From: Desulfoferula mesophila
GTDB taxonomy: Bacteria > Desulfobacterota > Desulfarculia > Desulfarculales > Desulfarculaceae
Length of the DNA stretch: 64,000 nt
NCBI RefSeq assembly: GCF_037076455.1
Contig: NZ_AP028679.1
Location: forward strand, 3,301,501 to 3,365,500
Direction of reading: 5' to 3'
Below are positions 15,591 to 37,670 of this stretch, piece by piece. Both the position numbers and the translations under genes were made by a program. The notes beneath the pieces are model-generated. The model searched no databases, was not told the origin of the DNA, and saw only the letters and a list, made by a program, of their open reading frames with translations. Positions within the stretch are counted from its first letter, which is position 1, and each line of letters begins with the position of its first letter.

Positions 15591-15659
15591 GGCACAGCGG
15601 TGGCACAAGCCCGTCTTCTCACAAAAAAAGAGGCTAGCCCGATTAGGCTAACCTCTTGA
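15591..15659 (+). pseudogene. 3' remnant of a third tyrosine integrase gene
   Basis: The last 13 codons, ending TKKEASPIRLTS and stop, are the same peptide as the end of the element 1 integrase at 22981, and the distance from stop to the tRNA repeat is the same (6 nt). Two GGCACA motifs 11 bp apart (15591 and 15602) correspond to the GGGCACA arm repeats at the end of the element 1 integrase. The rest of the gene is gone. Confidence 0.7.
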
Positions 15660-15665
15660 TTTTGT

Positions 15666-15712
15666 TGGTGCCGAGGGACGGAGTTGAACCGCCGACACGG
15701 GGATTTTCAGTC
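15666..15712. repeat. att site 1: 47-bp copy of the tRNA-Phe 3' part
   Basis: These 47 bp equal 22988-23034 and the 3' part of the intact tRNA-Phe at 37595-37641, from the CCA end to the anticodon loop. The sequence then diverges (GAAACCG instead of CCCTGCT), so no tRNA is encoded here. It is the left boundary of element 1 and the right boundary of the older remnant. Confidence 0.9.
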
Positions 15713-15831
15713 GAAACCGTGTAATCAGCAAGGAGTAAGTGATTTCGGGTAACTAGCTAACATCACACAGACTAAGCTTGGCTCAATGGGTTGGGAAATG
15801 GTAGGGTGAGCCAGGCTTTTTGTGTAGCGGT

Positions 15832-15852
15832 GGGCACAGTTTCGGGCACAGT
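15832..15852 (+). repeat. Arm-type integrase repeats, left end of element 1
   Basis: Two copies of GGGCACAGT start at 15832 and 15844. The same motif pair with the same 12-bp offset occurs at the other end of the element (22921, 22933), as expected for integrase arm-binding sites. Confidence 0.6.
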
Positions 15853-15863
15853 CGGGGGAACCC

Positions 15864-16814
15864 ATGGTGGACAAAGACGTTGTTAATTATCTAGTTGAAG
15901 CCTTGGAGATAACCAGCGCCGAGGAACGGTTCGGTGCGGAAATTGAAAAACACACCAATGTAATACCCAAGGAAAGGATTCCTGAGCTATTACATGATCG
16001 CGGCGACTATGCAGCCATTGATCGTTCTAGAGTTAATTTTTTATTAGATTTGTCAGTTGAGTTGTGTGTTCAGTCCATGCAAATAGCCCATGCAACTAGA
16101 CCGATCAGTGAAACCCAAGCCGTCATCGATCGATCTTACAAAGATTTCGGGGAAAATGTAAACAAGGAGCATCTAAAGACAGCCCAAAATAATATGCTTG
16201 AATATTACAAGAAATTTAAGAAGGTGAACAGCGATGAGCGAAAAAAATTAATAAATAACATGCCAGATATGATCGTATCAAGATGGAAAGTAGATCGTGT
16301 TCTTAAATTTTTCTTTCTAGACAACTACACCCAAATCAAGATATTTTTAACATTACTAGACACAAAATTCCCAAATGGAGGGTATGAGCCAAACGACGTT
16401 ATACAATATTTGTCTTCGCTGATTTATTATCATTTATTAATGGCATCAACCGCACCGCCTGAACTTAATAATGCAATGTATCTAGTCACCAGCAAAGTGG
16501 CACTTTTGGCTGGACATATGCTCGCAACGTTTAACGGGGTGAATGAGCGAGCTGATGCAGGGATTCGTGGTGTAAAGGTCAGAACAGACAAGGGCAACGA
16601 GTTGGACAAATGGATAGCACACGTTTTTTTGCGTGAACTAGACCCCGAAGAACGAAAACCACCGGGAACTGCTGTACATAAGAAAATTAAGAATAGGCTT
16701 GAAGTAATGGCTAGTGATAGCACCGAAATCGCCAACCTGATAAAGGGTGGCGTTAGTTACGACAGAGTAAGGCGCGCTCTACAGGAATGTGGTGAGTGGC
16801 CTTTGAAAAAGTAG
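15864..16814 (+). CDS. AT-rich hypothetical protein of element 1
   Basis: 316 aa, mostly helical by eye, with no signal peptide or membrane segment and no family I recognise. Base composition is clearly more AT-rich than the host, so it is recently acquired cargo. It is the first gene inside the left end, the accessory position in many integrative elements, and is set off by a palindrome pair and a terminator from the replication gene. A defence or host-interaction role is possible from position alone; there is no motif evidence. Confidence 0.6.
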   Translation: MVDKDVVNYLVEALEITSAEERFGAEIEKHTNVIPKERIPELLHDRGDYAAIDRSRVNFLLDLSVELCVQSMQIAHATRPISETQAVIDRSYKDFGENVNKEHLKTAQNNMLEYYKKFKKVNSDERKKLINNMPDMIVSRWKVDRVLKFFFLDNYTQIKIFLTLLDTKFPNGGYEPNDVIQYLSSLIYYHLLMASTAPPELNNAMYLVTSKVALLAGHMLATFNGVNERADAGIRGVKVRTDKGNELDKWIAHVFLRELDPEERKPPGTAVHKKIKNRLEVMASDSTEIANLIKGGVSYDRVRRALQECGEWPLKK

Positions 16815-16822
16815 AACCACAC

Positions 16823-16893
16823 TTGCATGACCTAGGTCTTGCAAAATAAAATGCACTAAAAATAAATATATTTGCACGACCAAGGTGTTGCAA
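16823..16893. repeat. Two related 22-bp palindromic repeats before the RepA-like gene
   Basis: TTGCATGACCTAGGTCTTGC continues to AA at 16844 and is a near-perfect palindrome. A second version, TTGCACGACCAAGGTGTTGC plus AA, lies at 16872-16893, 49 bp further on. They could be operators for the RepA-like gene or part of an origin. Confidence 0.5.
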
Positions 16894-16895
16894 AA

Positions 16896-16923
16896 GGTCG
16901 CCCCTTTTCTGGGCGGCCTTTTT
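16896..16923 (+). terminator. Rho-independent terminator after the AT-rich gene
   Basis: GGTCGCCC, a short CTTTTCT loop and GGGCGGCC are followed by TTTTTA. It ends the transcript of the 15864 gene, or attenuates read-through towards the RepA-like gene. Confidence 0.7.
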
Positions 16924-16985
16924 ACGTAATGATGCGTTTAACGAAAGGTTGATTTGGTTTTGTTTATATACAGGAGATTGTTTGA

Positions 16986-18011
16986 ATGAATGTAAGCCTT
17001 GCCGAAGCAAGCAACCCCGAAGAAAACAACACGCCGATAGCCGATAATGATTCCACGCCTTCACTTCATGACCCCACCATTGAACCAGACAAGCAAGATC
17101 AGACCGTTGGGCACTACTTAACAACCTTCTCTGCTGTCGCCTTGGAAGATTTACTATGCCTTGGGTTGCCCGAGAGGGGCCACCTTCTAGACCCGATCTT
17201 CCCCAAGCCAGTGCTAGCAATGCTGTTTGCCCCAACAGGCACGGGGAAGACTTACGCCGCACTGAGCATTGCATACGCCGTGGCAAGCGGTGGGGAAGTA
17301 TTCAAATGGCAAAGCCCCAGCCCCAAGCCTGTCCTGTACTTGGACGGCGAAATGTCAGCAAGGGTCATGAAAGAACGCTTGGCCCAGATCGTAGCTGGAG
17401 CCAGTCAGCAAGCCCCGCCTGGTTTTTTTAAAATCGTGACCCCCGACCTAGTGCCCGATGGCATCATGCCCAACCTGGCGAAGCCCGAAGGCCGCGAACT
17501 GCTTGAACCTTTGTTAGATGAAGTTGACCTGATTGTCGTGGACAACATCGCTACGCTTGCCAGGGTAGGCAGGGAGAACGAAGCCGAGTCGTGGCTACCA
17601 GTTCAGAGCTGGTTACTGGTTCAGCGTCGAGCGGGCCGGTCTGTGTTGCTTGTTCACCATGCCGGTAAGGGGGGACAGCAAAGGGGAACATCGGCCAGGG
17701 AAGATATTCTCGACACCGTTATAAGCCTTACCCGCCCTTCTGACTACCAAACCAGTGATGGTGCTCGATTCGTAGTCAACCTGACCAAAGCCCGTGGATT
17801 GACCGGTCAACAAGCCGACCCTTTTGAGGTCGCTATCACCGACTTACCTACCGGTGGTCTGGGATGGGCGGTTAAGGATCTCAAAGACCTTCGGCTTGAG
17901 CAGGTTACTGGGATGAAAAACCTTGGGATGACCATTAGGGAGATCGCCGAGGAAACAGGCATCCCACGCTCAACCGTCTATCGACTTACTAAGAAACTGG
18001 AGGGGGAATGA
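16986..18011 (+). CDS. RepA-like hexameric helicase/AAA ATPase
   Basis: 341 aa. A RecA-fold ATPase core carries Walker A APTGTGKT (about residue 80), LYLDGEMS, Walker B DLIVVDNIATL and a LLVHHAGKGGQQRGTS motif, all typical of plasmid RepA and AAA_25 proteins that unwind origins or restart replication. The last 45 residues form a short HTH (MTIREIAEETGIPRSTVYRL). AGGAG precedes ATG 16986. The gene overlaps the next one by 4 bp (ATGA), and the next gene contains an iteron-like cluster, so this is probably the replication module of element 1. Confidence 0.85.
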   Translation: MNVSLAEASNPEENNTPIADNDSTPSLHDPTIEPDKQDQTVGHYLTTFSAVALEDLLCLGLPERGHLLDPIFPKPVLAMLFAPTGTGKTYAALSIAYAVASGGEVFKWQSPSPKPVLYLDGEMSARVMKERLAQIVAGASQQAPPGFFKIVTPDLVPDGIMPNLAKPEGRELLEPLLDEVDLIVVDNIATLARVGRENEAESWLPVQSWLLVQRRAGRSVLLVHHAGKGGQQRGTSAREDILDTVISLTRPSDYQTSDGARFVVNLTKARGLTGQQADPFEVAITDLPTGGLGWAVKDLKDLRLEQVTGMKNLGMTIREIAEETGIPRSTVYRLTKKLEGE

Positions 18012-18541
18012 TGAACACGGATTGCCAAACGTCCTATGTGTCCCACCGTCCCACTCTCTATAAAGTGGGACAGTGGGACAAGGGGGGCGAAAGTGGGACA
18101 AGCCCTGAGACAGCAAGTGGGACGGCAGACCTCAAGTCATTGGCATTACACGTATTATACCAAACCAAAATGGGACAAGCGCGGGACGGGGCACGGGACA
18201 CGCTGTCCCAACCCCTAAAAGCGCCTGGGACAGCCGCCTGTACGGGTACCATCCCAGCCTTGACCAAAGAGGAAAGCCAAGAGGTCATTGGCTGGCCTGT
18301 CCAGACCCAGCGTGTCTACACCCGCCTACTGGACCACTTCGAGGCCAGAGGCTTCCCTCTACTGCAAGCTGAACGTCTTTCCTTCACAACTCTTATTGTT
18401 TTGAAGAAGCGCAAAGGCTGGCCCTTGATCCTGGTGAGCGATCTACCACCTGAGATAGGGCGGGCAATCGGGTATGTGCTAGACGCTTTTCCCGGCACAA
18501 AGTTGATGAATTACAGGCACAAAACGGTCACAGCGCAATGA
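18008..18541 (+). CDS. Element protein containing the GTGGGAC repeat cluster
   Basis: 177 aa. The C-terminal 75 residues (GWPVQTQRVYTRLLDHFEA, then LKKRKGWP) match the middle of the element 2 protein at 33744-34421, so this is a shared family of unknown function. The N-terminal 90 residues are low complexity because their DNA is packed with GTGGGAC motifs; in all frames the peptides differ, so selection seems to act on the DNA. The gene overlaps both neighbours by 4 bp, showing translational coupling with the RepA-like gene and the HTH gene. Confidence 0.65.
   Translation: MMNTDCQTSYVSHRPTLYKVGQWDKGGESGTSPETASGTADLKSLALHVLYQTKMGQARDGARDTLSQPLKAPGTAACTGTIPALTKEESQEVIGWPVQTQRVYTRLLDHFEARGFPLLQAERLSFTTLIVLKKRKGWPLILVSDLPPEIGRAIGYVLDAFPGTKLMNYRHKTVTAQ
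18039..18232. repeat. Iteron-like cluster of GTGGGACA motifs
   Basis: GTGGGACA or its complement occurs at 18039, 18065, 18073 and 18093, with near copies at 18048, 18117, 18171, 18194, 18204 and 18226. The copies at 18065 and 18073 are directly adjacent. Both orientations occur and spacing is irregular. The position right after a RepA-like gene suggests an origin of replication. Confidence 0.55.
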
Positions 18542-18777
18542 AACGTACTGGGATTGTTGAGAAAAGAGCGGCAAAGGGGATTAGTAATCGAATGAACCAA
18601 AGGCTTTTAACGCTGAAACAGGCGGCAGATTACCTTGGCCTGACCACCTGGGCCATGCGGGAACGGGTCTGGAATGGGGATATCCCGGTGGTGAGGTTCT
18701 CCAATGGCCGAAAGCAATACATCGACGTTCAAGACATTGAAGCCTTTATCAAGGCGAACAAGGAGCGGATCGCTTGA
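18538..18777 (+). CDS. AlpA/excisionase-type HTH protein
   Basis: 79 aa. The pattern LLTLKQAADYLGLTTWAMRE, then the wing WNGDIPVVRFSNGRKQYIDVQDIEAFI, is that of small MerR-like HTH proteins used as excisionases or AlpA-type activators. It starts within the stop of the previous gene (ATGA) and is the likely partner of the integrase at 21908 for excision or its transcriptional activator. Confidence 0.75.
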   Translation: MKRTGIVEKRAAKGISNRMNQRLLTLKQAADYLGLTTWAMRERVWNGDIPVVRFSNGRKQYIDVQDIEAFIKANKERIA

Positions 18778-18779
18778 GC

Positions 18780-19001
18780 TTACTCCTTAATCGGCAGAGG
18801 CCCCTTGCACTCCCTGCAAGCCTGAAGCTCAAATCTGTATTTTTCTTTAGCCAAAAGCCTTTGCTTAAAGGCATCGCAACTTTGCTTATTCAGAAAGCGC
18901 ACACAAGGGTTATGGCGGCAAACGTAGGGCAGAGGAATCTGAACTTCTGGCTTAGGCAATTGGCGCATCTCCGGCTGGGCAAGCAAGCCGGAGGCTATCA
19001 C
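18780..19001 (-). CDS. Possible small Cys-rich protein on the opposite strand
   Basis: 73 aa with four Cys residues in two groups (YVCRHNPCVRF, then QACRECKGPLP), a pattern like small phage or element zinc-binding proteins. The GTG start at 19001 has no strong ribosome-binding site. The opposite-strand frame here has no family features, which favours this one, but it could be non-coding. Confidence 0.35.
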   Translation of the reverse strand: MIASGLLAQPEMRQLPKPEVQIPLPYVCRHNPCVRFLNKQSCDAFKQRLLAKEKYRFELQACRECKGPLPIKE

Positions 19002-19085
19002 ATAACTCTGCTTGAGCCAAGAAGGAACAAAAAGCGGGGTGCCCCAACCAACACGGTCGAGACACCCCTAACAAGGAGGATGATC

Positions 19086-19199
19086 ATGCGCGCTATCCGC
19101 CTGAATGAATCCTACTCATTTTCTTCGGGCGCTGTCAACCCGAAGATGGTTGATCGCCTAGATGATGAGCAAACCCCAAGCAAAAAGGAAAAGAAATGA
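19086..19199 (+). CDS. Small protein coupled to the terminase-like gene
   Basis: 37 aa (MRAIRLNESYSFSSGAV...), preceded by an ideal AAGGAGG 6-7 nt upstream (an ATG at 19080 is also in frame). It overlaps the next start by 4 bp (ATGA). A longer open frame back to 18774 has no ribosome-binding site or family features. Function unknown. Confidence 0.5.
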   Translation: MRAIRLNESYSFSSGAVNPKMVDRLDDEQTPSKKEKK

Positions 19200-19600
19200 G
19201 CAAGCCAGCCAAGCAGGCACACGAAGAGAACATTTTGGAATATCTAACTAATCCCGACAACGAATGGCCGACTAGGCAAGACCTGGCTACTAAGGTGCTG
19301 GGCATATCCCAGGGGATGCTTTACCAGCACTTCACCGGGGCTGAACTGGATCAGCTAGAGGCCGAAGCCTTGAACCTTCGCCGCTCCCAGATAGCCCGCT
19401 ACTCCGTGAAGGTTGATCGTGCCTTGTACGACAAGGCCGTTGAGGGTGACGTATCAGCCATGAAGCTCTGGTATCAGCGCATGGAAGGCATGGGCCAGGA
19501 TGCTCCCCCCACTGGCAAGCTGGTTATCTGCTGGGAAGAACCGGAAGCCCTACCCGTGCAGGAACCCAAGCTGATCCCGGAGCACGGCGAACATGGGTAG
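19196..19600 (+). CDS. Terminase-small-subunit-like DNA-binding protein
   Basis: 134 aa. An N-terminal HTH (WPTRQDLATKVLGISQGMLY) is followed by helices ending LYDKAVEGDVSAMKLWYQRM, a pattern found in phage terminase small subunits and related packaging proteins. No large terminase subunit is near, so if it is a TerS it would have to work with a helper phage, as in satellite elements. The 30-residue C-terminal tail is acidic and Pro-rich. Confidence 0.55.
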   Translation: MSKPAKQAHEENILEYLTNPDNEWPTRQDLATKVLGISQGMLYQHFTGAELDQLEAEALNLRRSQIARYSVKVDRALYDKAVEGDVSAMKLWYQRMEGMGQDAPPTGKLVICWEEPEALPVQEPKLIPEHGEHG

Positions 19601-19684
19601 GGGGACCCCCGCATATATACGAGGGGGGCGGGGTCATGGGGACCCCTCGGCGAACGTAATTGTAAAAAATCAGGTTTCTCAGCC

Positions 19685-20056
19685 ATGACCACCCCCTTGA
19701 AGAGCATCAGACAGAATTGTGTCGAATGCATGGGCGGCAGCTATCAGGCGATTAACGATTGTCCTTCCCAAAACTGCCCCCTCTGGACGGATCGGAGCGG
19801 CAAGAAACGCAAAGGACAGCGTCCCCTCTCAGCTATCAAGGGCTTTTGTTTGGAATGTGTGGGAGGGCTGGAAGAAGTCAAGAAATGTATCGGCAAGATG
19901 CTTTTTGGTCCGGACTGCCTGCTACACCCCTACCGTTTAGGCAGGAACCCCCGAAAACGGGGCCAGGGTCAGGTGCAAAACCTGTTCAGATCGCCCAATG
20001 GCGAGGGGGTTGACGCTCCAGAATCGCATGAAGACGGCCAACAGATGGTTGGCTAG
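19685..20056 (+). CDS. Double zinc-finger-like element protein
   Basis: 123 aa. Two related Cys-rich units, IRQNCVECMGGSYQAINDC and FCLECVGGLEEVKKCIGKM, each continue to a further Cys (NCPLW; DCLLHPYRLGRNP). The spacing suggests two zinc sites. I have the impression of a phage- and element-associated family without assigned function. The last 35 residues are disordered-looking. Confidence 0.6.
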   Translation: MTTPLKSIRQNCVECMGGSYQAINDCPSQNCPLWTDRSGKKRKGQRPLSAIKGFCLECVGGLEEVKKCIGKMLFGPDCLLHPYRLGRNPRKRGQGQVQNLFRSPNGEGVDAPESHEDGQQMVG

Positions 20057-20343
20057 GACTTTCGCTCTCTGACAATTAAATAGAGTAATAATTTAAGGTT
20101 ATCTTATACGAGAGATAACCTCCATGTAATAAATCGTAATATATAGGTGTTGTGCTGCCGCGCACGCCAAATCATTAAAGGTGGGACAAAACGGTACATA
20201 TAGTTTTTTCTGGTCTATTGCTTTGGGGGTGGGGAGTACCGGATCAGATGGGACCCGTTTGGCGGTGACGGTCCTTCCGCTCAACACACAAAAAGATACC
20301 TCCCCCAGGCCGTGGGCGATGATTCCGACTAGAGAGGCTTAGG
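20057..20343. other. Gene-free stretch with a small inverted repeat
   Basis: No supportable gene. AGGTTATCT (20096-20104) and AGATAACCT (20113-20121) form a 9-bp inverted repeat, a possible operator or terminator. One more GTGGGACA copy lies near 20182, outside the main cluster. Confidence 0.4.
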
Positions 20344-20574
20344 TTACTGGTCGTTTTTGTCTTTCAGTTTTTGGATAAGTTGTTCTAAGTCTTGCTGATT
20401 TTGTTGGTCGATGGGGTTGGGGGTTCTGGCTATCGAGCCATCTTTGGTGACGATAGAGCCACCGGTATCAACGATAACGTCCCCGTTGGGCATTGTGAGT
20501 ACGTCCCCCGGCTGGGTACTTGGGATAATAACGGTTCCTGCCAGCAACCCGGCAAGTATGAGTTGTTTAAACAT
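20344..20574 (-). CDS. Small secreted hypothetical protein
   Basis: 76 aa starting MFKQLILAGLLAGTVIIP, a signal peptide or lipoprotein-like leader without a Cys lipobox. The mature part is Gly/Asp/Asn/Gln-rich and ends in a helical QQDLEQLIQKLKDK. ATG 20574 has GGAAGG about 7 nt upstream. It lies between the zinc-finger gene and a Sel1-repeat gene. Function unknown. Confidence 0.6.
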   Translation of the reverse strand: MFKQLILAGLLAGTVIIPSTQPGDVLTMPNGDVIVDTGGSIVTKDGSIARTPNPIDQQNQQDLEQLIQKLKDKNDQ

Positions 20575-20632
20575 GATTAACCTTCCGAACAAGTTATGGG
20601 TTAAAGGGCAGGCGATATGGTGGCTAAAATGG

Positions 20633-21205
20633 TTATTTTGATGGTTTCCACTCGCTGGCAAGGCGCTGGGCTTCGGCTATTTGTTGGGGGGTCATTTTAG
20701 CAGCGATCATGTCCCGCCCTTTTTGAGCAAGTTCTATTCCCTGAGCGGCAGCCAGGTTAAACCACATATGTGCTTTGATGTAGTTTTGCGGAACCCCCTC
20801 GCCGTTGGCATATAAATACCCTAGGTTGTATTGAGCCCCAACGTTCCCCTGCTCTGCCGCTTTGTTGTACCAGTAGGCTGCCTTTTTATAGTTCTGAGGT
20901 ATTCCTTGGCCATTTTCATACATCTCGCCAAGGCTGGCTTGGGACTCAACAAAGCCCTGCTCGGCGGCCTTTCGATACCAAAAAATTGCCTTCTTGTAAT
21001 CTTGGGGTACGCCTTTGCCAAAGAAATACATAACCCCCATAGTGTTCTGATTTTGTGCATCTCCCTGTTCAGCCAAAGACAGAAAAATTTTTATGGCTGT
21101 TGCGTAATCGCCTTTCATAAAAGCTGCCCAACCTTCTTCCGAACCAGCCCACGCCGGTTGTGCCAGGCACAGGGCAAGCAGAATGGCCAAGGCTATTTTT
21201 TTCAT
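20633..21205 (-). CDS. Secreted Sel1-repeat (TPR-like) protein
   Basis: About 190 aa. A signal peptide ends at AWAG. At least three to four Sel1 repeats of about 36 residues follow, with AEQGDAQNQNTMGVMYFFG, KGVPQDYKKAIFWYRKAAEQ and repeats of the same form. These form helical scaffolds for protein contact, often at the cell envelope. ATG 21205 follows a purine run GGAGGGGGAAA. Element-borne Sel1 proteins may alter the host surface or envelope stress signalling; this is inference only. Confidence 0.8.
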   Translation of the reverse strand: MKKIALAILLALCLAQPAWAGSEEGWAAFMKGDYATAIKIFLSLAEQGDAQNQNTMGVMYFFGKGVPQDYKKAIFWYRKAAEQGFVESQASLGEMYENGQGIPQNYKKAAYWYNKAAEQGNVGAQYNLGYLYANGEGVPQNYIKAHMWFNLAAAQGIELAQKGRDMIAAKMTPQQIAEAQRLASEWKPSK

Positions 21206-21311
21206 GGTTTCCCCCTCCCCCGTCTGGCGCAGACATTTTAGCACACCCCCTTAGGCTTATGGGTAAGCGGCCATCCTAGAGTGGGTTCAGGCTTGCGCGG
21301 GGAGTGTTATC

Positions 21312-21395
21312 AACCGGAATGAGGCGCAGGCCATTCGACTGACCCTGGCCTACGCCACCGTCAAGGAACTACAGAGACGCAAAGGCGCTCCTTTG
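21312..21395 (+). pseudogene. Fragment of the shared element protein family
   Basis: The frame reads NEAQAIRLTLAYATVKELQR and RKGAPL, matching the AEALAYATMQELKRRRGG region of the element 2 protein at 33744-34421 and, less closely, the 18008 protein. No start and no upstream homology remain, so it is a short decayed copy. Confidence 0.5.
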
Positions 21396-21407
21396 AATTA
21401 CTTAGTT

Positions 21408-21587
21408 TTACTGCTTTGCTTTTGGTGCGGTGGTATTCGCAGCCTTGAAATGCTTTAAGCCTGTCTCAATTAATATTCTCAGCGCTTCGGCGCGTGAAGG
21501 TATTCTGTTTGAATAACGGAAATCCTCGACTTCCTCCCACAAGTCTTCATCCATCACAAAGCTAGTTATGGGCTTTTTGCTCGGCAT
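21408..21587 (-). CDS. Ribbon-helix-helix DNA-binding protein
   Basis: About 59 aa. A strand (KKPITSFVMDEDLW) followed by two helices with SNRIPSRAEALRILIETGL fits the CopG/RHH fold, small dimeric repressors. It is transcribed away from the integrase. The intergenic DNA holds a TTGACA and two tandem ATAGGTTA repeats (21639-21654), the sort of site RHH proteins bind, so it may repress itself and integrase. Confidence 0.7.
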   Translation of the reverse strand: MPSKKPITSFVMDEDLWEEVEDFRYSNRIPSRAEALRILIETGLKHFKAANTTAPKAKQ

Positions 21588-21632
21588 TATTCCAAATACC
21601 ACCCTTATGCCGAAAAAATCAATAACTATCAC

Positions 21633-21654
21633 TTGACAATAGGTTAATAGGTTA
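21633..21654. promoter_or_regulatory. TTGACA with tandem ATAGGTTA operator repeats
   Basis: TTGACA (21633-21638) is followed immediately by two perfect direct repeats ATAGGTTA (21639-21646 and 21647-21654). It lies between the RHH gene and the integrase gene, which are divergent. Confidence 0.5.
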
Positions 21655-21720
21655 TTAACTTAATAATATATGCTGAACCTTGGCGCGGGTGGCTCCGTTA
21701 TGGCCAATACAACGAAACTA

Positions 21721-21843
21721 GACCCGAGTTCCCCCGAGCGGCGACGCCGGGGCGGCCTTCGCCAGGGGCCGAGCAAGGACTCGGGTTTTCCTATGGCAAA
21801 AAGATGCCCCCGGGCAGCGGGGGGTAGTGCTGTCCCGGGGGCG
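21721..21843 (+). ncRNA. Candidate structured RNA upstream of the element 1 integrase
   Basis: Two strong folds lie in tandem in a GC-rich island within AT-rich element DNA. The first closes with ACCCGAGT (21722-21729) and ACTCGGGT (21779-21786) and encloses further GC pairs. The second pairs GCCCCCGGGCAGC (21806-21818) with GCTG-T-CCCGGGGGC (21829-21842), 13 bp with one bulge. An open frame crosses it but gives an Arg/Gly/Pro-rich peptide with no family features. Confidence 0.4.
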
Positions 21844-21907
21844 GTGGCTATCGGTCTATTTTAAAATGACCGTAGCCAATTCTAGTTTAACAGCAAGGAG
21901 GTAGAGA

Positions 21908-22981
21908 ATGGGTATGATCTATCAGAGAGGCAATATCTACTGGATCAAGTATTACCGCAACGGAAAACCCTACCGTGAATCAACCCGCAGCACTAAAGAA
22001 TCAGATGCCAAAAGGTTGTTGAAGAAGCGTGAGGGCGAAATATCCGAGGGCAAGCTTCCCGGCGTCTACTACGACAAAGTGCGGTTTGATGAGCTAGCCA
22101 CAGACTATTTGAACGACTACCGTATCAACGGCAAAAGCACCCTTAACAAGGCCGAGAGGATCGTCAAGCTTCACCTGGAGCCATTCTTCGGTGGCTACAG
22201 AGTCACCAACATAACAACCGCCCTAGTGAGAGAGTACATTGCCCAACGAATGGAAGCTGGGGCCGCAAACGCCACCATCAACCGGGAACTAGCGGCCCTG
22301 AAACGGGCCTTCAACTTAGCCAGCCAATGCACCCCGCCCAAGGTCCCCCAGGTTCCCCATATCCCCATGCTCAAGGAGAACAACACCCGCAAGGGCTTCT
22401 TGGAGCATGACCAGTTCCTAGCCCTGCGTAATGCCTTGCCTGAACACCTTCAGGGCCTAGTGACCTTTGGCTACAAAACCGGGTGGCGCTTGGGGGAGAT
22501 AACGGGGCTTACCTGGGATCGTGTCGACATGGTGCAAGGAATCGTGAGGCTTGAGGCAGGTGAAACCAAAAACAATCAAGCCCGTACGGTCTACTTGGAT
22601 GATGAACTCAAGGCGGTCTTGAGGAATCAGTTTGTTAAGCGCCACCTTGGATGCCCTTACGTCTTCCATCGGGAGGGCAAAAAGGTAGGGCGGTTTGACA
22701 AGGCATGGAATACCGCTTGCGCCACCGCCACACTTCACGGGGCTATCTTCCATGACCTCAGACGTACGGCTGTACGCAACATGACGAGAGCCGGGGTCCC
22801 TGAACGGGTAGCCATGATGATAAGCGGCCACAAGACCCGCTCAGTGTTTGACCGCTACAACATCGTATCCGCCGAAGACCTCAAGCAAGCCGCCGCCAAA
22901 CTTCAAGCCTACCTGCCCACGGGCACAGTCACGGGCACAACCACAAAAAAAGAGGCCAGCCCGATTAGGCTAACCTCTTGA
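21908..22981 (+). CDS. int: Tyrosine recombinase/integrase of element 1
   Basis: 357 aa. The N-terminal arm and core-binding parts (MIYQRGNIYWIKYYRNGKPY; NATINRELAALKRAF) precede the catalytic domain with Arg in TGWRLGEITGL, His-x-x-Arg in HDLRRTAVRNM, His in SGHKTRS and Tyr in FDRYN. It probably inserts element 1 at the 3' end of tRNA-Phe. AAGGAGG precedes ATG 21908. Its last codons overlap a hairpin (22952-22977), and att site 2 begins 6 nt after its stop. The last 12 residues are identical to the remnant at 15659. Confidence 0.92.
   Translation: MGMIYQRGNIYWIKYYRNGKPYRESTRSTKESDAKRLLKKREGEISEGKLPGVYYDKVRFDELATDYLNDYRINGKSTLNKAERIVKLHLEPFFGGYRVTNITTALVREYIAQRMEAGAANATINRELAALKRAFNLASQCTPPKVPQVPHIPMLKENNTRKGFLEHDQFLALRNALPEHLQGLVTFGYKTGWRLGEITGLTWDRVDMVQGIVRLEAGETKNNQARTVYLDDELKAVLRNQFVKRHLGCPYVFHREGKKVGRFDKAWNTACATATLHGAIFHDLRRTAVRNMTRAGVPERVAMMISGHKTRSVFDRYNIVSAEDLKQAAAKLQAYLPTGTVTGTTTKKEASPIRLTS
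22921..22940 (+). repeat. Arm-type integrase repeats, right end of element 1
   Basis: GGGCACAGT at 22921 and GGGCACAA at 22933, 12 bp apart and inside the 3' end of the integrase gene, mirror the pair at 15832/15844. Confidence 0.6.
22952..22977. terminator. Hairpin at the end of the element 1 integrase
   Basis: GAGGCCAGCC and GGCTAACCTC form an imperfect stem, with a run of A before it (T-run on the minus strand) and TTGATTTT after it. An almost identical hairpin lies at 15630-15655. It may stop transcripts coming from either side of the att site. Confidence 0.6.
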
Positions 22982-22987
22982 TTTTGC

Positions 22988-23034
22988 TGGTGCCGAGGGA
23001 CGGAGTTGAACCGCCGACACGGGGATTTTCAGTC
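22988..23034. repeat. att site 2: 47-bp copy of the tRNA-Phe 3' part
   Basis: Identical to 15666-15712 and to 37595-37641. It is the junction between elements 1 and 2. After position 23034 the tRNA pattern is lost, so it encodes no working tRNA. Confidence 0.92.
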
Positions 23035-23199: not shown

Positions 23200-24396
23200 T
23201 TGGCGAAGCTCACCAAACGGCGTATTGACAGCATCAGGCCTGGAAAAAAAGACGTGGTGTTGTGGGATAGCGAAGTCCAGGGTTTCGGGCTGCGTGTGAT
23301 GAAGGATACCGGCTACAAGAGTTTCATAATCCAATACCGGGCCCAGGGCCGAAGCCGCCGTCTTACCATTGGGCGCTATGGGCTCATGACCTTGGTTCAG
23401 GCCCGCAAAGTTGCTAGGGAGAAGTTGTCGGCAGTTGACCAGGGTGGTGACCCCGCGGAAGAAAAGAAGTTGGGTCGTCAGGCTGTAACCATCAAGGAGC
23501 TGGCCCAACGATACCTTGAAGAACACGCCAAGGTGAAGAAAAAGCCTGCCAGCACTTTCCGTGACGAGCGGTTGCTAGGGCGCTTCATCCTGCCAACTCT
23601 CGGCACACGCCAGATTAAAACTATCACCAGGGCAGACGTTGCTGCGCTGCACCATAAGATAGGCCAGGAGACCCCCATCCAGGCTAACCGCACCCTGGCC
23701 GTGTTCTCCAAGATGATGACCCTGGCTATCCGGTGGGGCCTATACCCAAACGAAAACCCTTGCCGCCACGTGGAGCGCTTCAAGGAACGCAAGCGGGAGC
23801 GCTATCTCAGCCAGGATGAGTTGGCCCGCCTGGGCCAGGTCCTGAACGAGGCCGAAGAGAACCAGCTGATTTCCCCTACCGCCGCCGCCGCCCTGAGGCT
23901 GTTAGCTTTATCTGGCATGCGTAGGAGCGAAGTACTCAGCTTACAATGGAGTTGGATTGACTTCGAACGTGGCGTAATCTTTTTCCCGGATTCCAAGACC
24001 GGCCAGAAGATCACGGCCCTTGGAGCGCCCGCTCTGGAGCTCCTGGACAACATTCCGAGAACTGCTGGCAATCCCCATGTATTCCCGGGCAAAATATTCG
24101 GCCGCCCACTCCACGACCTTAACAAGCCTTGGCAAATGGTGCGGGAGAAAGCCGACCTCAAGGGCGTTCGTCTTCATGACCTTCGTCACACCCATGCCAG
24201 CGTAGGGGCTGCGGCCGGGCTTTCCCTGCGGGTTATCGGGGCCCTGCTGAACCACACCCAGGCTGCCACAACCCAGCGTTACGCCCACCTGCCCCAGGAT
24301 CCCGTGAAGCAAGCCGCCGATCAGGTGGCCAGCCTAATTGATGGTGCCATGAAGGCGCCGGCAAAGCGCAAAGTGGTTGATATCGATAAAGGCTAA
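23200..24396 (+). CDS. int: Tyrosine recombinase/integrase of element 2 (P4 type)
   Basis: 398 aa. An N-terminal DUF4102-type arm-binding domain (KDVVLWDSEVQGFGLRVM, RRLTIGRYGLMTLVQAR) is followed by the core-binding and catalytic domains, with Arg in SGMRRSEVLSLQW, HDLRHTHAS, NHTQAATTQRYAH. The family is that of P4 and many genomic-island integrases that use tRNA 3' ends. The start is TTG 23200 with GGAGGG 8 nt upstream. It differs from the element 1 integrase, so the two elements arrived separately. Confidence 0.93.
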   Translation: MAKLTKRRIDSIRPGKKDVVLWDSEVQGFGLRVMKDTGYKSFIIQYRAQGRSRRLTIGRYGLMTLVQARKVAREKLSAVDQGGDPAEEKKLGRQAVTIKELAQRYLEEHAKVKKKPASTFRDERLLGRFILPTLGTRQIKTITRADVAALHHKIGQETPIQANRTLAVFSKMMTLAIRWGLYPNENPCRHVERFKERKRERYLSQDELARLGQVLNEAEENQLISPTAAAALRLLALSGMRRSEVLSLQWSWIDFERGVIFFPDSKTGQKITALGAPALELLDNIPRTAGNPHVFPGKIFGRPLHDLNKPWQMVREKADLKGVRLHDLRHTHASVGAAAGLSLRVIGALLNHTQAATTQRYAHLPQDPVKQAADQVASLIDGAMKAPAKRKVVDIDKG

Positions 24397-37594: not shown

Positions 37595-37641
37595 TGGTGC
37601 CGAGGGACGGAGTTGAACCGCCGACACGGGGATTTTCAGTC
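37595..37641. repeat. att site 3: 3' part of the intact tRNA-Phe
   Basis: The 47 bp shared with att sites 1 and 2; here they continue into a complete tRNA, so this is the reconstituted target site. Confidence 0.92.
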
Positions 37642-37670
37642 CCCTGCTCTACCAACTGAGCTACCTCGGC
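37595..37670 (-). tRNA. tRNA-Phe (anticodon GAA)
   Basis: 76 nt read on the minus strand. The acceptor stem GCCGAGG pairs with CCTCGGC. The D arm contains AGCTCAGTTGGTAGAGC, the anticodon loop is CTGAAAA (anticodon GAA) within GGGGA/TCCCC, the T arm contains GGTTCAACTCC, and CCA is encoded. The 3' 47 nt double as the attachment site of the elements to its left, so integration rebuilds the gene each time. Confidence 0.97.

Follow-up and report, generated by a model that had tools for sequence, protein, structure and literature searches.

Within the 64-kb stretch of DNA that we analyzed (the window), a cluster of short repeats directly downstream of a helicase gene is very probably the iteron replication origin of an integrated 7.4-kb mobile element (element 1), whose RepA-type helicase (Rep) would bind the repeats through a C-terminal helix-turn-helix (HTH) domain and load there after excision. 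The array itself, the layout it shares with its relatives, the conservation of its DNA and its co-variation with the HTH were all computed here. A preliminary description of this DNA had proposed that the cluster may be an origin used with a RepA-like ATPase; the presence of a RepA helicase that carries an HTH, the same layout in most relatives and a repeat word that tracks the HTH all lend support to that proposal.

Between positions 18040 and 18231 of the window, we counted 11 GGGAC cores, 8 in forward and 3 in reverse orientation, against 0.32 expected for this length from the window background (Poisson P of about 7e-14). The array is the densest 200-bp segment of the window for this core, the runner-up containing 4. 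About ten GTGGGAC(A) motifs in both orientations within 200 bp had been described; the cluster stands, but only 6 copies are exact GTGGGAC, and a count near ten is reached by allowing one mismatch outside the core. Likewise, motifs described as directly adjacent do form close pairs (18040/18048, reverse; 18065/18073, forward), but their starts are 8 bp apart, which leaves one base between the 7-mers. Taken singly, GTGGGAC occurs across the window at about the expected frequency (10 observed versus 9.5 expected), and the signal is therefore one of clustering. Many such motifs spread over the genome would have counted against a specific role; in the 4.48-Mb genome, the pattern of three close GTGGGAC copies was found at the array only, as two overlapping matches. 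The array is organized as follows.

18039 to 18080, unstranded: core double dyad, TGTCCCAccGTCCCActctctataaagTGGGACAgTGGGACA, with two reverse and two forward iterons around a 14-bp centre
18095 to 18123, forward strand: first iteron triplet (18095, the degenerate TGAGACA at 18106-18112, and 18119) in 12-bp steps, a layout that matches relatives
18131 to 18160, forward strand: AT-richer segment between the triplets, a candidate melting region, encoding LKSLALHVLY (family SLKALAxxVLxR)
18172 to 18199, forward strand: second iteron triplet (18172, 18183 and 18195) in 11-12-bp steps
18205 to 18231, unstranded: two outlying iterons, 18205 reverse and 18227 forward

The AT content of the 30-bp stretch between the triplets is 67%, a value that refers to the window only. 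A scan of the array region against Rfam returned no RNA family. Two more GGGAC sites, GTGGGAC at 20181 and ATGGGAC at 20248, lie between genes of the element (20181-20254).

The array lies inside element 1, the boundaries and recognizable genes of which are listed here together with the tRNA gene related to its ends.

15620 to 23034, unstranded: mobile element 1, 7.4 kb, with 93-bp direct repeats (98% identical) as its boundaries
15620 to 15712, unstranded: distal copy of the att repeat, comprising the 3' half of tRNA-Phe and downstream sequence
22942 to 23034, unstranded: proximal copy of the att repeat, the 93-bp partner of the distal copy
37595 to 37670, reverse strand: intact tRNA-Phe; both att repeats contain an identical copy of its 3' half (anticodon loop to CCA)
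21908 to 22981, forward strand: tyrosine integrase of element 1 (Pfam Phage_integrase, 2.1e-21; PHROG integrase)
18538 to 18777, forward strand: AlpA/excisionase-type HTH_17 protein
19196 to 19600, forward strand: small terminase-small-subunit-like protein (PHROG terS, 5e-8; Pfam match below cut-off)

The tRNA-Phe locus constitutes a third copy of the att repeat (84%). With an integrase, att sites, a small size and no structural genes, element 1 displays traits of a phage satellite. In 19 further genomes from this genus and family the rep gene is absent, as expected of a mobile element. A second integrase (23200-24396) is encoded just past the proximal att repeat and, together with the intact tRNA-Phe, suggests a second element inserted in tandem between 23.0 and 37.6 kb.

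The protein that would read the array is encoded immediately upstream of it.

16986 to 18011, forward strand: rep, an RSF1010-RepA-type helicase (AAA_25) of 341 aa with a C-terminal HTH (Pfam AAA_25, 1.2e-25)
17886 to 18002, forward strand: Rep C-terminal HTH, residues 301-339; positions 316-317 and 326-328 rank with the strongest predictors of the iteron word

Residues 303-339 of Rep match several HTH families in Pfam, and the best match to Rep by sequence among solved structures is RSF1010 RepA (PDB 1g8y, 4e-7). An AlphaFold (AF2) model built with 59 family members as input had a pLDDT of 89, and Foldseek again ranked RSF1010 RepA (1g8y) as the top match to it, with an E-value of 3e-12. A fold search of viral models with Rep returned only generic phage helicases and primase-helicases. 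Residues G85, G87, K88, D186 and H225, of the helicase and P-loop, are invariant in the family. Given the AAA_25 and HTH matches and the agreement on 1g8y by both sequence and fold, Rep is a RepA-type helicase to which a DNA-binding domain has been added C-terminally. It is thus distinct from a stand-alone helicase that lacks such a domain and leaves the origin to be read by RepC, and it is of the AAA_25/RepA type rather than the DUF927 or D5/Primase_Cterm type of SaPI and PICI Reps.

Two collection scans yielded 76 homologous loci (77 sequences including the window) from hosts in Pseudomonadota, Thermodesulfobacteriota, Acidobacteriota, Nitrospirota and other phyla. Phage records contained no Rep relative and plasmids gave one partial match; tblastn searches with the other window genes identified no conserved set of neighbours around the relatives besides integrases. 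In most homologous loci, the region directly 3' of the rep stop is crowded with a short word, which varies among loci (GGGAC, GCAAC, GAAAC, GGAAC, GCACC, GCGAC, GAGAC and a few single cases). Words were called from counts compared with shuffles; a free-width EM motif search, which ended up on motifs of low information content, was abandoned. We also searched for a double dyad of any word, w-n(2-4)-w-n(9-16)-w'-n(2-4)-w', where w' is the reverse complement of w. Such a dyad, with the geometry w-n3-w-n14-w'-n3-w', occupied the post-rep position (within 400 bp of the rep stop) in 60 of the 77 sequences and in none of the shuffled regions. Its centre is roughly CCTAGG, with CTAG present in 20/60 loci against 2.8 expected from shuffled spacers. 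On its 3' side, forward iterons follow at 11-12-bp steps, frequently grouped into two triplets separated by about 43 or 54 bp, and the window array adheres to this plan of dyad, triplet, gap and triplet. Spacings between same-strand iterons in the range of 10-70 bp are periodic at 10.5 bp (R 0.78; R 0.19 for a period of 3). The preliminary description had pointed to the same cluster downstream of related RepA genes as a check, and the layout is indeed there, albeit with a varying word. It had also held that relatives with the gene but no repeats would refute the idea: many relatives without GTGGGAC carry another word in the same layout, but a few divergent ones (L006, L050, L063 and L065) show no clear array.

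Additional double dyads with the same word were observed in L014, L016 and L019, some 1 kb 5' of the rep stop, and elsewhere in L056, L057 and L058; being away from the origin position, these may be operators or second origins. Several relatives have a TOPRIM and/or CHC2 primase domain, either next to Rep or in the same polypeptide, so that the replication module is complete there. A scan for TOPRIM covering four of the long Reps (L040, L042, L045 and L068) identified an N-terminal TOPRIM fused to AAA_25 in L040, L045 and L068, the first two of which also have a recognized HTH, and no TOPRIM match in L042; other long Reps (about 560-665 aa) include L003, L052 and L061. The rep-ori order is of the SaPI/PICI kind, with a primase in several relatives and none recognized by a domain scan of the element 1 proteins. 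A broken rep remnant is present in a genome of the same class (G041 C1:1588704-1589252; L086, L094), nearest to the delta-proteobacterial GGGAC group.

The variation of the word among relatives allowed us to compare it with the protein. Across 60 dereplicated loci, sharing of a word correlated with HTH identity when ATPase identity was held constant (partial Mantel r 0.43, 0/2000 permutations), and its correlation with ATPase identity when the HTH was held constant was not significant (r 0.04, 349/2000), figures that are limited both by word classes assigned by the authors from counts in the same regions and by the coarseness of identity as a measure. The seven columns of the whole protein that best predict the word (residues 327, 302, 316, 326, 303, 333 and 328) all fall in the HTH, and the word requires at least 19 changes on the tree of the ATPase domain. 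In close pairs, helix and word both differ: L071 (TKGY, GAAAC) versus L072 (NKGY, GCAAC), L040 (SLAT, GAAAC) versus L045 (GLGT, GGAAC), and L017 versus L030. In a forward test, words of newly fetched loci were predicted from the nearest HTH of the first set. At HTH identities of at least 0.5, 5/6 words were predicted (two from one genome) and the sixth was tied; below about 0.45, predictions failed for L112, L113, L116 and L117. Success with close HTHs and failure with remote ones indicate, at the level of sequence, that the link between word and HTH is real and that the code cannot yet be extrapolated. Residues 301-303, outside the recognition helix, also carry word signal, and a simple side-chain readout of the word is therefore not established.

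The array also lies within an open reading frame.

18008 to 18541, forward strand: downstream ORF of 177 aa that holds the array and overlaps the rep stop

The repeats could in principle be a low-complexity coding repeat, a by-product of selection on the downstream protein. Such an ORF (at least 85 codons, beginning within 30 bp of the rep stop) is open in 41/60 loci, and a short peptide, SLKALAxxVLxR, is conserved with varying codons in about 25 loci; its usual place is between the triplets, as for the window copy (18131-18160). However, the GGGAC cores of the window occupy all three reading frames, and among homologous ORFs each of the three frames is represented in how the dyad is read (15, 13 and 8 loci), even inside the GGGAC class, bearing out the earlier remark that no peptide repeat explains the motifs. 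Moreover, the spacing is helical rather than codon-like, and some loci that lack such an ORF still have an array. On the grounds of frame usage and helical spacing we rejected the coding-repeat explanation, which is hardly credible. Iteron columns are more conserved than spacers in 13/13 pairs (e.g., 0.98 versus 0.73), with only a slight difference in the closest pairs. Since the dyad is not tied to any one frame, it is the DNA of the array, and not a peptide repeat, that selection keeps. The conserved peptide may serve as a contact site for Rep or for a replication protein of the host; some loci have a similar stretch at the N-terminus of the ORF instead.

An operator or silencer, through which Rep would control its own operon and downstream genes while replication starts elsewhere or never, could account for the extra same-word dyads near the rep start or elsewhere in the six loci named above and for the similarity of the Rep HTH to those of regulators. 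We consider it unlikely: at least 10 helically phased sites 3' of a helicase gene far exceed what an operator needs, the array lies within an ORF and away from the promoter in most loci, and its layout resembles that of PICI and SaPI origins (PMC7581432, PMC6092414). A centromere-like partition or incompatibility site, or a packaging signal, is very unlikely. Repeats adjoining an initiator gene can serve partition, and a terS-like gene is nearby, but no ParA or ParB was found among the element 1 proteins scanned, and the word co-varies with the HTH of the helicase itself.

For the replication origin that we favour, from sequence comparison we strongly infer that the Rep HTH binds the array. 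The HTH would engage the double dyad first, as two inverted pairs around roughly CCTAGG, and Rep would then occupy the helically phased triplets on either side of the AT-richer stretch. Rep so bound could position helicase rings head to head, their placement would melt the DNA, and melting would permit theta-type replication after excision. It is also reasonably likely, though with less assurance, that element 1 represents a new and widespread class of self-loading RepA-HTH initiator helicases with a single geometry (CCTAGG double dyad, phased triplets and an ORF with SLKALAxxVLxR), in which the word is rewritten together with a few HTH residues. If so, the family embodies a natural recognition code in which each element has a private origin. 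The relatives provide a large natural data set in which initiator and origin change matching parts jointly while the geometry stays constant, and origin specificity, and hence incompatibility of co-resident elements, becomes testable through swaps of a few residues. A dyad 3' of an AAA_25-HTH gene further serves as a signature for finding such elements, which are scarce in the plasmid and phage collections searched.

Among known systems, the closest helicase fold to Rep by both sequence and structure is RepA of the RSF1010 (IncQ) RepA/RepB'/RepC system. The iterons of RSF1010 are bound by a separate protein, RepC, whereas in element 1 helicase and HTH form a single protein, and its relatives have a primase of the TOPRIM/CHC2 type, not RepB'. 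Phage lambda likewise has origin iterons inside a coding sequence (ori-lambda), but there the array resides in the initiator gene, O, and O is not a helicase. In SCCmec, the C-terminal domain of the helicase Cch2 binds short repeats lying immediately 3' of the helicase gene, as we propose for Rep, but these are three intergenic AAGTG repeats and the helicase is D5-type (PMC7581432). A 2018 survey of integrated elements suggested a possible origin-reading role for winged-helix domains located C-terminally alongside RepA and other helicases; its PrimPol-PV1 RepA-helicase/winged-helix proteins share with Rep a helicase, a C-terminal DNA-binding domain and residence in integrated elements, but are fused to archaeo-eukaryotic primases, and the word 'iteron' is absent from that paper (PMC5862659). 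In the open-access papers that the search covered, we found no description of the array or of iterons with AAA_25-HTH helicases.

The nearest parallel is the Pri-Rep-ori module of SaPIs and PICIs (SaPIbov1, EcCICFT073). In SaPIs, the Rep C-terminal domain recognizes iterons just downstream of its own gene (PMC7581432), and a rep-ori segment from a Gram-negative PICI drives plasmid replication (PMC6092414). As we propose for element 1, an iteron origin lies directly 3' of a helicase-initiator gene and is read by the Rep C-terminus, with two iteron sets flanking an AT-rich stretch; an integrase, an excision function and sometimes terS are likewise present (PMC7581432, PMC6092414). The helicases differ, in that SaPIbov1 Rep is DUF927-related and SaPI5 Rep has Primase_Cterm (PMC7581432), whereas the ATPase of element 1 is RepA/AAA_25 and its array is contained within an ORF and combines a fixed double dyad with a wide choice of interchangeable words. 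By analogy, then, element 1 would work like a SaPI/PICI replicon, and what appears new is the other helicase family, the placement of the origin within an ORF, and a fixed geometry in which the words are exchangeable.
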